Source of the DNA: an uncultured Oscillospiraceae bacterium
GTDB taxonomy: Bacteria; Bacillota; Clostridia; Oscillospirales; Ruminococcaceae
NCBI GenBank assembly: GCA_934481445.1
Contig: CAKSPC010000036.1
Coordinates: 1 to 26,654 of the forward strand
Reading direction: 5' to 3'
Length of the DNA stretch: 26,654 nucleotides
The position numbers and the translations under genes are program-made. Position 1 is the stretch's first letter. Every line of letters starts with the position of its first letter. Under the pieces are notes generated by a model, which did no database searches, was not told the DNA's origin, and saw only the letters and a program-made list of their open reading frames with translations. Positions 16,814 through 26,654 of this stretch are shown piece after piece.

Positions 16814-16854
16814 GACATAAATGCTGTTGATATGAAAAATTTTCAGGAAAAACA

Positions 16855-16882
16855 AGCCGCGCAGGAAATAACCTGCGCGGCT
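16855..16882 (-). terminator. Terminator hairpin, distal copy beside repeat copy A
   Basis: Perfect 11-bp stem AGCCGCGCAGG/CCTGCGCGGCT with a 6-base loop. On the minus strand it is followed by TTGTTTTT, so it is a functional-looking terminator for minus-strand RNA. It is one half of a 28-bp direct repeat with 17103-17130 (one mismatch). Confidence 0.8.
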
Positions 16883-17102
16883 CAGACCGTCGAAAAATTC
16901 AAAACGGCAGAAAATTTGCAATAGACTGTGGGGGAAAACTCTTGTTTTCCCCCACACCCCTTTAGCGCCTTTGAAGCCGTAAAACCGCACTGCGTGCGGA
17001 GTGGCGGGGGCTCTGCCCCCACAACCCCCGCTTCCTTTTGTGTCAAAAGGAAGCGAAAACCAATACGCTACGCGGAAATTTTAAAGGTTTTTCGACAAGC
17101 TG
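16883..17102 (+). repeat. Terminator-associated stem-loop repeat, copy A (220 bp)
   Basis: Begins CAGACCGTCGAAAAA and ends TTTTTCGACAAGCTG; these are imperfect terminal inverted repeats (12 of 15). The interior differs from the other copies and holds four strong stem-loops, for example GTGGGGGAAAAC/GTTTTCCCCCAC, CCGCAC/GTGCGG, GGGGGC/GCCCCC and GCTTCCTTTTG/CAAAAGGAAGC. No coding sequence. It is bracketed by two copies of one terminator hairpin. Confidence 0.8.
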
Positions 17103-17130
17103 AGCCACGCAGGAAATAACCTGCGCGGCT
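17103..17130 (-). repeat. Terminator hairpin, proximal copy beside repeat copy A
   Basis: Copy of the 28-base hairpin at 16855-16882 with one change (G to A in one arm). On the minus strand it is followed directly by the repeat element, not by a U-tract. Probably the duplicated half of the insertion target. Confidence 0.8.
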
Positions 17131-23706: not shown

Positions 23707-23981
23707 CAGCTTGTTGAAAAAATCGTCTTTGCCCGCGAAGCGGGCTTTTTAAATCCGTTTTTCGCCACGGGTCAAGGGTGACTGTGTCGACCCTGCCGGG
23801 TGCGAAAAACACTTCTATCCGCACAAGTGTGTTAGCGACAGCTTCGCTTTACGCTTAATTGTCGGCATAGCCGACAATGAGTGCGCGCAGTGTGCCTTTT
23901 GTTTTGCAAAAGGCGTAAGGCATGGCTTGCCATGCCAGTGGATGTACCCTGTCGGAAAAGTCGTAAGACTTTTTCGACAGA
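23707..23981 (-). repeat. Stem-loop repeat, copy D (275 bp, minus orientation)
   Basis: In reverse orientation it shares with copy B the hairpin GTCGAAAAAGTC/GACTTTTCCGAC, the GTCGGC-GCCGAC hairpin, the ACACTTGTGCGGATAGAAG segment and GGATTTAAAAAGCCCGC with its GCCCGC/GCGGGC stem, ending at AAGCTG. Extra stem-loops enlarge it: CATGGC/GCCATG and CCTTTTG/CAAAAGG. It is bracketed by the exact 12-bp direct repeat TTGTTCAGAAAT (23695-23706 and 23982-23993). It lies between the divergent murA and dapL promoters. No coding sequence. Confidence 0.8.
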
Positions 23982-24050
23982 TTGTTCAGAAATATTGTTG
24001 CCGCGAAATAATTTTTTAATCCCGCAGACGGCGAAATTCCGTATAAAGGA

Positions 24051-24136: not shown

Positions 24137-25345
24137 ATGGCAAAGCTTAACGAAAATTTTTTCAAGCTGAAAAAGAACTACTTGTTTATTGAAATTGCAA
24201 AGAGGATCAAGGCATACTCTGCTGAGCATCCCGAGGAAGCAAAGCGCCTTATCCGCATGGGTATCGGCGATGTAACACGCCCGCTGGCGCCCGTCGTAGT
24301 CGAGGCGATGGAAAAAGCGTGCCGTGAGATGGGTGTTAAGGAAACCTTCCGCGGATACGAGGACAGCGGCGCAGGCTATGACTTCCTGCGCGAGGCGGTT
24401 TCTAACTATTACAAGAGCTTCGGCGCGGATGTTTCCGCCGACGAAATACGCATTTCCGACGGCGCAAAGAGCGACTGCGGCAATATCATCGACATCTTCG
24501 GCACAGGCAACACAGTTCTCGTTACCGACCCTGCATACCCTGTATATGTTGACTCCAACATAATGAACGGAAACGACGTTATCTACGCCGATTCCACCGA
24601 GGAAAACGGCTTTGCTGCCATGCCCGACAAATCCGTAAAGGCAGACCTTATCTACCTCTGCTCCCCGAACAACCCCACAGGCTCCACCTACACCGCTGCG
24701 CAGCTCAAGGAATGGGTCGATTACGCCCTCAGCAACAACGCCGTGATCATTTACGACGCAGCATATGAAGCATTCATAACCGAGCCCGATATTCCGAGAA
24801 GCATTTTCTGCATCGAGGGCGCAAAGAAGTGCGCTATCGAGATATGCTCCCTGTCCAAGACGGCCGGCTTCACCGGCACACGCTGCGGCTACACGGTTGT
24901 TCCGAACGACCTTGTTCAGAAGAACAGCTCCGGCGAGGACGTAAAGCTTGCGGATATCTGGGGCAGACGCCAGGGCAGCAAGTTCAACGGCGTATCCTAC
25001 CCTGTCCAGCGCGGCGCGGAGGCTGTTTTCACCTCAGAGGGACAGAAGCAGACCCACGAAGCCATCGCATATTATCAGGAGAACGCACGCACCATCGCAA
25101 AGACCTGCGACGAGCTCGGCATCAAGTACACCGGCGGCATCAACTCCCCGTACATCTGGCTCAAGTGCCCGAACAACATGGGAAGCTGGGATTTCTTCGA
25201 TATGCTGCTGACCAAGATACAGGTTGTCGGCACCCCCGGCGCAGGCTTCGGCAAGAACGGCGACGGATGGTTCAGACTGACAGCGTTCGGTACTCATGAA
25301 GCTACCGCAGAGGCTATGGAAAGGCTCAAGGCGCTGCTCAAGTAA
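24137..25345 (+). CDS. dapL: LL-diaminopimelate aminotransferase
   Basis: 402 residues, a PLP fold-type I aminotransferase. Diagnostic segments: N-terminal KLNENFFKLKKNYLFIEIAKR, IRMGIGDVTRPLAP, GYEDSGAGYDFLREA, DGAKSDCGNI, PAYPVYVDSN, SPNNPTG, IYDAAYEAF, and the PLP-binding Lys K241 in SLSKTAGFTGTRCGY. DapL converts tetrahydrodipicolinate straight to LL-diaminopimelate, feeding lysine and peptidoglycan crosslinks, and dipicolinate biosynthesis branches from the same route. It is cytosolic, a single-gene unit, with a duplicated terminator downstream. Confidence 0.96.
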   Translation: MAKLNENFFKLKKNYLFIEIAKRIKAYSAEHPEEAKRLIRMGIGDVTRPLAPVVVEAMEKACREMGVKETFRGYEDSGAGYDFLREAVSNYYKSFGADVSADEIRISDGAKSDCGNIIDIFGTGNTVLVTDPAYPVYVDSNIMNGNDVIYADSTEENGFAAMPDKSVKADLIYLCSPNNPTGSTYTAAQLKEWVDYALSNNAVIIYDAAYEAFITEPDIPRSIFCIEGAKKCAIEICSLSKTAGFTGTRCGYTVVPNDLVQKNSSGEDVKLADIWGRRQGSKFNGVSYPVQRGAEAVFTSEGQKQTHEAIAYYQENARTIAKTCDELGIKYTGGINSPYIWLKCPNNMGSWDFFDMLLTKIQVVGTPGAGFGKNGDGWFRLTAFGTHEATAEAMERLKALLK

Positions 25346-25363
25346 TTTATAAATAATATTAGT

Positions 25364-25385
25364 GCCCCTGCCTGAATGCAGGGGC
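25364..25385 (+). repeat. dapL terminator hairpin, proximal copy
   Basis: Perfect 8-bp stem GCCCCTGC/GCAGGGGC with loop CTGAAT. It is 19 bp after the dapL stop but followed by only two T before repeat copy B begins. Together with its flanks it is a 26-bp direct repeat (25362-25387 with 25577-25602). Confidence 0.85.
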
Positions 25386-25387
25386 TT

Positions 25388-25576
25388 CAGACCGTCGAAA
25401 AAGTCCCGTTTGGACTTTTCCGACGAAACATCCGCCCTGCGCGCACGGTTTGTCGGCATTGCCGACAAACCGCACACTTGTGCGGATAGAAGTGTTTTTT
25501 GCCTCGGCAGAGCTGAGGCAAAAAACGGATTTAAAAAGCCCGCTTCGCGGGCAAATACTATTTTTTCGACAAGCTG
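25388..25576 (+). repeat. Terminator-associated stem-loop repeat, copy B (189 bp)
   Basis: Begins CAGACCGTCGAAAAA, ends TTTTTCGACAAGCTG. A chain of stem-loops: GTCGAAAAAGTCC/GGACTTTTCCGAC, GGTTTGTCGGC/GCCGACAAACC, CCGCACA/TGTGCGG-type, TTTTTTGCCTC/GAGGCAAAAAA and GCCCGC/GCGGGC. No coding capacity. It is the reference copy of the family and sits exactly between two identical dapL terminator hairpins. Confidence 0.85.
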
Positions 25577-25578
25577 GT

Positions 25579-25606
25579 GCCCCTGCCTGAATGCAGGGGC
25601 TTTTTT
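25579..25606 (+). terminator. dapL terminator, distal copy with U-tract
   Basis: Same 8-bp stem and loop as 25364-25385 but followed by six T, so this copy is a complete intrinsic terminator. Any RNA reaching it carries the whole repeat element. Confidence 0.9.
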
Positions 25607-25620
25607 ATATCCACTTTTAT

Positions 25621-26604: not shown

Positions 26605-26654
26605 CAGACCGTCGAAAAAGTCCCGTTGGGACTTTTCCGACGAAACATCCGCCC
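26605..26654 (+). repeat. Stem-loop repeat, copy C (left end, cut by window edge)
   Basis: First 50 bases of the element: CAGACCGTCGAAAAAGTCCC then GTT and the complementary arm GGGACTTTTCCGAC, then GAAACATCCGCCC. It matches the start of copy B at all but one position, a T to G change in the hairpin loop region. No terminator hairpin is visible on its left. The rest lies outside the window. Confidence 0.8.

Follow-up and report, generated by a model that had tools for sequence, protein, structure and literature searches.

The closest described relatives of the elements reported here are IS1272 and TnSha1 of staphylococci, in which a transposase of the IS1182 family directs insertion into a DNA hairpin or at its base; the targets include several terminators and share no conserved sequence (Furi et al., PMC4923244; Wan et al., PMC5678879). 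According to the available portions of these two papers, IS1272 inserts without target duplication and the hairpin is partly or wholly deleted, whereas the elements described below have it twice, once on each side. The same portions credit Siguier et al. with palindromic targets for some IS1182 members, and Figure 13 of PMC5678879 draws duplication of the whole stem-loop as a hypothetical pathway b, and of the loop alone as pathway c, in each case without data. Short, non-coding elements with IS1182-like ends that are thought to be mobilised in trans, as we propose for ours, are described in the accessible text on MITEPye1 of Paracoccus yeei (PMC11578231) and on MITEs of Methanosarcina (PMC3852290); there, these elements and ISPse1 (PMC3281130) have 4-bp repeats (0, by our reading of the table, for one Methanosarcina MITE) in place of the whole hairpins seen here. 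In the literature searched, palindrome targeting by IS1182 members and hairpin loss by IS1272 are thus already published, and duplication of an entire hairpin figures only as the hypothetical pathway of PMC5678879; the available portions of PMC4923244, PMC5678879, PMC10969869, PMC4596501, PMC9587614, PMC3281130, PMC11578231, PMC3852290 and PMC4940900 do not report it as an observed event.

The window, by which we mean the whole 26,654-nt stretch of DNA analysed here, carries an open reading frame at 24137..25345 (plus strand) for a class I/II aminotransferase of 402 aa (Pfam Aminotran_1_2, E 9e-35). The original prediction called this gene dapL; our tools bear out the aminotransferase family, which is as far as they go, and we keep the name as that of a dapL-like gene. 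Its terminator is the target of a 189-bp element, copy B (25388..25576, plus strand), which is abutted on both sides by an exact 26-bp direct repeat, GTGCCCCTGCCTGAATGCAGGGGCTT, at 25362-25387 and 25577-25602 (plus strand). The repeat is the hairpin GCCCCTGC-CTGAAT-GCAGGGGC with 2 additional bases per side, and the dyad lies at its centre. After the proximal hairpin copy there is no T-tract and the sequence continues CAGACC, whereas the distal copy has six T (25601-25606). Both the bracketing of copy B by the terminator hairpin and the retention of the T-tract at the distal copy alone had been predicted, and both are borne out. Group IIC introns also insert at terminator hairpins; unlike copy B, they are retroelements that insert after the hairpin and are not known to duplicate the target.

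The ends of copy B are CAGnnnGTCGAAAAA and TTTTTCGACnnnCTG. Its left terminal repeat, CAGACCGTCGAAAAA (25388..25402, plus strand), has the triplet ACC that is found at one end of an IS1182 copy on a Sutcliffiella plasmid, and its right terminal repeat (25562..25576, minus strand; TTTTTCGACAAGCTG read on the plus strand, CAGCTTGTCGAAAAA on the minus strand) has the CTT of the other end. Allowing at most 1 mismatch, we count the end motif CAGNNNGTCGAAAAA 7 times in the window; 100 shuffles contain it 0.10 times on average, and not one of them attains the count of 7. The anatomy would place copy B in the 3′ UTR of the dapL-like gene, where termination probably survives, since the T-tract stays on the distal hairpin copy. 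When positions 25346-25610 are folded as RNA, the result is far more stable than that of shuffled sequences (z -9.9; 0 of 200), and in the best predicted structure the two hairpin copies pair with each other around the element; the 3′ UTR would therefore gain a large structure. Empty dapL sites had been proposed as a check. Among eight related loci, four were readable (L116, L117, L118 and L120, in genomes G008, G007, G005 and G006), and by eye each has a hairpin after the gene, with no element and no second hairpin, which is weak evidence because the loci belong to other species.

A second copy, overlooked in the original prediction, reproduces the anatomy of copy B on a different 28-nt hairpin. 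This element (16883..17102, plus strand; 220 bp) has the same ends as copy B; the hairpin copy at 16855..16882 (minus strand) keeps its T-tract on the minus strand (AAAAA at 16848-16852 on the plus strand), and the copy at 17103..17130 (minus strand), 27/28 identical, has none. In the relative G008, the counterpart of this site (L188, 1192-1379) holds an oppositely oriented element of 188 bp, flanked on each side by G008's own hairpin. The same terminator may have been hit independently in the two genomes; as the G008 site is filled, it cannot serve as an empty site. A 2.9-kb query around the second site gave 45 matches in genome G006, most of which, among the matches listed, fall inside the element part, so that G006 seems to be rich in copies.

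The remaining copies in the window are less complete. Copy A (23707..23984, minus strand; 278 bp) is inverted relative to copy B, each of its ends is 1 mismatch off the motif, and its repeat is a 9-nt remnant, TTCAGAAAT; it lies between an EPSP-synthase gene (minus strand) and the dapL-like gene (plus strand), upstream of both, where no terminator is evident. Copy C (26605..26654, plus strand) is represented by its left end, being cut by the end of the window, and no hairpin is seen on the visible side. At the other end of the window, positions 1-309 hold four clustered tRNA genes, all on the minus strand, and the window end cuts the first of them; an Rfam scan of the window returned tRNAs only.

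Scanning of genome contigs for CAGACCGTCGAAAAAGTC yielded 105 stretches (L001-L105) with 107 pattern occurrences, under titles that are mainly those of Oscillospiraceae and other Clostridia MAGs. Before hairpins were counted, 16 of the 107 occurrences were set aside by hand on the basis of organism name; one Clostridium, C. sporosphaeroides (L064), and a Lentisphaeria MAG are among the sources of these 16, all of which lack a flush hairpin and which we take as chance matches. Among the other 91 element ends, 70 have a flush stem scoring at least 7, a measure that makes no use of the repeat; positions drawn at random from these loci do so in 59 of 1820 cases. Of the 21 without a flush hairpin at this score, several look like chance matches in genes and others like decayed hairpins. 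Pairing of ends across the window and L001-L105, limited to elements of 150-450 nt that have 30 nt or more of sequence to either side, gave 42 unique elements that are short, repeated, have inverted ends and encode no transposase, as expected of MITEs. With a hairpin repeat counted at 15 nt or more and at least 80% identity, 33 of the 42 have a hairpin as the direct repeat that brackets them; these repeats measure 21-36 nt, and 16 of them are exact. In 22 of the 33, complementarity (with G-T allowed) extends over all 7 outer pairs; letter shuffles achieve this in 8 of 6600 cases, and windows slid outward in 0 of 522. Five of the nine paired elements without a clean repeat are still flanked on both sides by related hairpins whose loops or arms have diverged (L017, L038, L054, L061, L091); the other four are L007 with two different hairpins, copy A of the window with its remnant, L060 with a hairpin on one side and L021 with none. 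Viral contigs gave no exact match to the MITE ends and no relative of the transposase.

Copy B encodes no transposase of the family; at 189 bp it has no room for one, and we therefore file it as a MITE of the IS1182 kind and not as an IS. Its terminal inverted repeats nevertheless point to that family: besides the end triplets shared with the Sutcliffiella element, which is itself bracketed by an exact 30-bp hairpin, the MITE start CAGACCGTCGAAAAAGTCC agrees by eye at 17/19 positions with CAGCCTGTCGAAAAAGTCC, the start of a plasmid-borne IS1182 copy of Thermocaproicibacter melissae. This organism belongs to the Oscillospiraceae, the family also named for several of the MITE-bearing MAGs. On its 19-kb plasmid, this IS1182 copy (L176, NZ_CP101828.1, 1-1951) has a type III-A cas10 gene as a near neighbour. 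The MITE-rich genome G001 has an internally deleted IS1182 transposase (profile positions 5-80 and 393-488) with ends near the motif, each end flush with a different hairpin. Searches of MITE genomes found no intact transposase with the exact MITE ends: the family cut-off was passed by 0 of 12 genomes and then by 3 of 27; G020 is the one clostridial MAG among these three, and for its two copies we found other ends (L157) or none (L145). Another candidate partner, the distant transposase L109 of G003, has a very long branch in the tree described below and was set aside.

We also compared 25 transposase-bearing copies from plasmids and phages (L175-L187, L199-L210), hand-picked from lists of 1019, 17, 324, 8 and 523 records. 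By tree or by ends, 17 of them belong to what we call the hairpin clade, and both ends are readable in 16, of which 14 are placed by the tree and two, L201 and L203, by their ends only, their transposase frames being broken and outside the tree. The ends of these 16 are similar, not identical; most start CAG, and L199 starts CAA. A hairpin of 17-47 bp stands on both sides in 13 of the 16, a proportion that, the copies having been hand-picked, is no estimate of frequency; 12 have exact direct repeats, and in L186 the loop is inverted. The three without a repeat are L177 and, each flush with two different hairpins, L176 and L200. No usable end pair was found for L145, L147, L178, L179 or L205, and L210 has ends without a repeat. 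Related copies that carry a transposase thus use their targets as copy B does, and, to judge from ends and targets, an IS1182 transposase probably moves MITEs of the copy B type in trans.

Several individual copies depart from this anatomy. In L186 (387-1973), L061 (5035-5278) and L017 (1503-1746) the loop is inverted on one side, such that the two flanking hairpins agree more closely when one is reverse-complemented than in direct comparison (21 vs 18 of 21, 22 vs 18 of 24 and 22 vs 19 of 24, respectively, with a 1-nt register shift allowed in the latter two); this could be a trace of hairpin opening in repair. Ends flush with two different terminator hairpins, and no repeat, are seen in L110 (1405-2136), L007 (5229-5473), L176 with L198, and L200, for which adjacent deletion or recombination between copies are possible explanations. 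In L036 (4764-4951) a T-A to G-C change distinguishes one hairpin copy from the other; it affects both arms, so that the stem stays paired.

At any single site, a hairpin that belongs to the element and moves along with it would be indistinguishable from a hairpin that has been duplicated. Across the 33 MITEs and 13 transposase-bearing copies that make up our geometry set (n=46), all 46 repeat sequences are different, and the filled G008 site described above is flanked by that genome's own hairpin. The three filled sites for which we have an empty counterpart, one record each and all from transposase-bearing relatives, already hold the hairpin when empty. In Bacillus pumilus, the site occupied by hairpin, element and hairpin in pBP-T2 holds just one 28-bp hairpin in plasmid pBP-33-3, the added repeat being exact between both anchors; an IncC plasmid of Shewanella has a single 18-bp hairpin at the Providencia site, again exact between both anchors; and a B. 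subtilis plasmid has a single 19-bp hairpin, which was read from context, the right anchor not being found exactly. A T-tract follows the single hairpin at all three sites. We accordingly regard a travelling hairpin as having a negligible chance of being correct, and for the autonomous relatives it is refuted.

An assembly artefact or an unrelated local duplication fares no better. The MITE loci come mostly from metagenome assemblies, and contig ends are close to many of the matches, which would suit such an origin; complete plasmids have the same anatomy, however, and the two B. pumilus records differ in length by exactly the element plus one repeat (8008-6432 = 1576 = 1548 + 28). This explanation, too, is refuted for the autonomous relatives and in general is barely credible. 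The original prediction had suggested that the element targets a terminator hairpin and duplicates the whole of it, and had named two observations that would count against this: relatives with a doubled hairpin and no element, seen at 0 of the 3 empty sites, and a hairpin carried to unrelated sites. Neither turned up, and the step from one hairpin with a T-tract to two, read from the three filled and empty pairs, joins the 33 of 42 hairpin repeats in upholding duplication. Replacement of the IS1272 type, with the hairpin deleted and nothing duplicated, is not what we see either: copy B and the second site each have two copies of their hairpin, and the empty sites of the relatives have one.

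Also evident in the 46 copies is the symmetry of the repeat, which in every case is centred on the hairpin dyad to within 1 nt. Repeat length ranges from 17 to 47 bp and is predicted to within 2 nt, in 43 of the 46, by the distance from dyad to element end; given the centring, the duplicated length follows the target. ISfinder lists long variable repeats for IS1182, so that some of this may be familiar to specialists. In 40 of 46 copies the first G-C pair is found 1-3 positions into the repeat, and in 31 of 46 the pairing could continue past the repeat, by at least 16 further pairs in L185; the joins are therefore placed just outside the G-C stem and not at the foot of the longest inverted repeat. 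This extra pairing beyond the joins is the strongest caution against a simple model in which insertion occurs at the foot of a cruciform. It also suits a reading in which the symmetric inverted repeat is recognised as B-form DNA with no extrusion, the variable stagger arising from two independent half-site contacts; symmetry alone, present in all 46 targets, could attract a dimer. Lengths of 17-47 bp are nonetheless hard to fit to one rigid transpososome, and the sister clade considered below duplicates mainly the loop, which suits a folded target. We consider recognition of B-form DNA unlikely, though not far-fetched.

An A- or T-tract lies outside the repeat in all 46 copies; at random positions the figure is 2396 of 9200, and at places lying 15-60 nt further out it is 181 of 450. 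The sites therefore look like terminators, at which transcription opens the DNA, and the folded target might accordingly be single-stranded DNA at a transcription bubble or a replication fork, and not a duplex cruciform. Target duplication requires joining on both strands, as is established in transposition chemistry, and this counts against a single-stranded target, which we judge quite unlikely. We favour a transposase that would read its target as a folded hairpin or cruciform.

The mode of duplication tracks the transposase clade. Among 25 transposases placed in a tree, all 11 of the hairpin-duplicating copies present fall in the hairpin clade (15 rows, 98/98), and loop-duplicating copies form a separate clade (4 rows, 98/97); L109, L204, L146 and L157 are long branches whose placement is less sure. 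L157, L207, L208 and L209, with ends GAGnCCACTGA or near it, have repeats of 8-12 nt (inexact in L208) at the centre of a palindrome. The pairing score of their flanking arms is reached by 1, 39, 0 and 4 of 2000 random positions, respectively, and L207, matched by 39, is therefore weak. Where repeats are 4-5 bp long the setting varies, with L206 inside a palindrome (1/2000) and L204 and L146 outside one (767 and 340 of 2000). Whole-hairpin duplication is thus the habit of one IS1182 clade, and a second duplicates mainly the loop; the two clades fit pathways b and c as drawn in the available portion of PMC5678879.

Copy B, we conclude, is very probably a MITE mobilised in trans by a hairpin-inserting DDE transposase of an IS1182 clade, with joins on opposite strands and gap filling that copies the hairpin. 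In the mechanism that we propose, this clade would insert into intrinsic-terminator hairpins and would mobilise the non-autonomous MITE as well. The two element ends would be joined on opposite strands, one on each side of the dyad and usually 1-3 A-T pairs outside the G-C stem, with strand transfer presumably at the 5′ foot of each strand's hairpin; gap filling would then copy the whole hairpin, and the duplicated length (17-47 bp in 46 copies) would follow the target. Since hairpin copies flank the element at dozens of sites, and flank full-size transposons too, the inverted repeat of the target seems to set the duplicated length. A broader proposal, which we hold to be evenly balanced, is that secondary structure in the target sets the length of duplication, and that one family produces all three outcomes of the PMC5678879 scheme through an attack point that shifts on a folded target: whole-hairpin duplication when the ends are joined to either side of an extruded terminator hairpin, loop duplication in a sister clade, and the hairpin loss of IS1272.

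The original prediction had likened this duplication to CRISPR adaptation, as a resemblance of topology only, and that reservation was well placed. In the available text of PMC4940900, a palindromic repeat is likewise duplicated around the insert when Cas1-Cas2 integrates a spacer; there it is one fixed repeat at one locus, whereas here there are many different terminators, and the ends match those of IS1182 DDE transposons, the family to which they point in place of CRISPR adaptation or a casposon. The same text gives most transposition systems a target duplication of one characteristic length. Lengths of 17-47 bp that track the hairpin offer a natural series with which to ask if transposases are able to recognise DNA secondary structure in vivo, and the hypothetical scheme drawn for IS1272 becomes a set of clade-specific, testable modes. 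Insertion into a terminator in a way that leaves a full terminator behind would let the element spread with little harm to its host, while adding folded sequence to 3′ UTRs.
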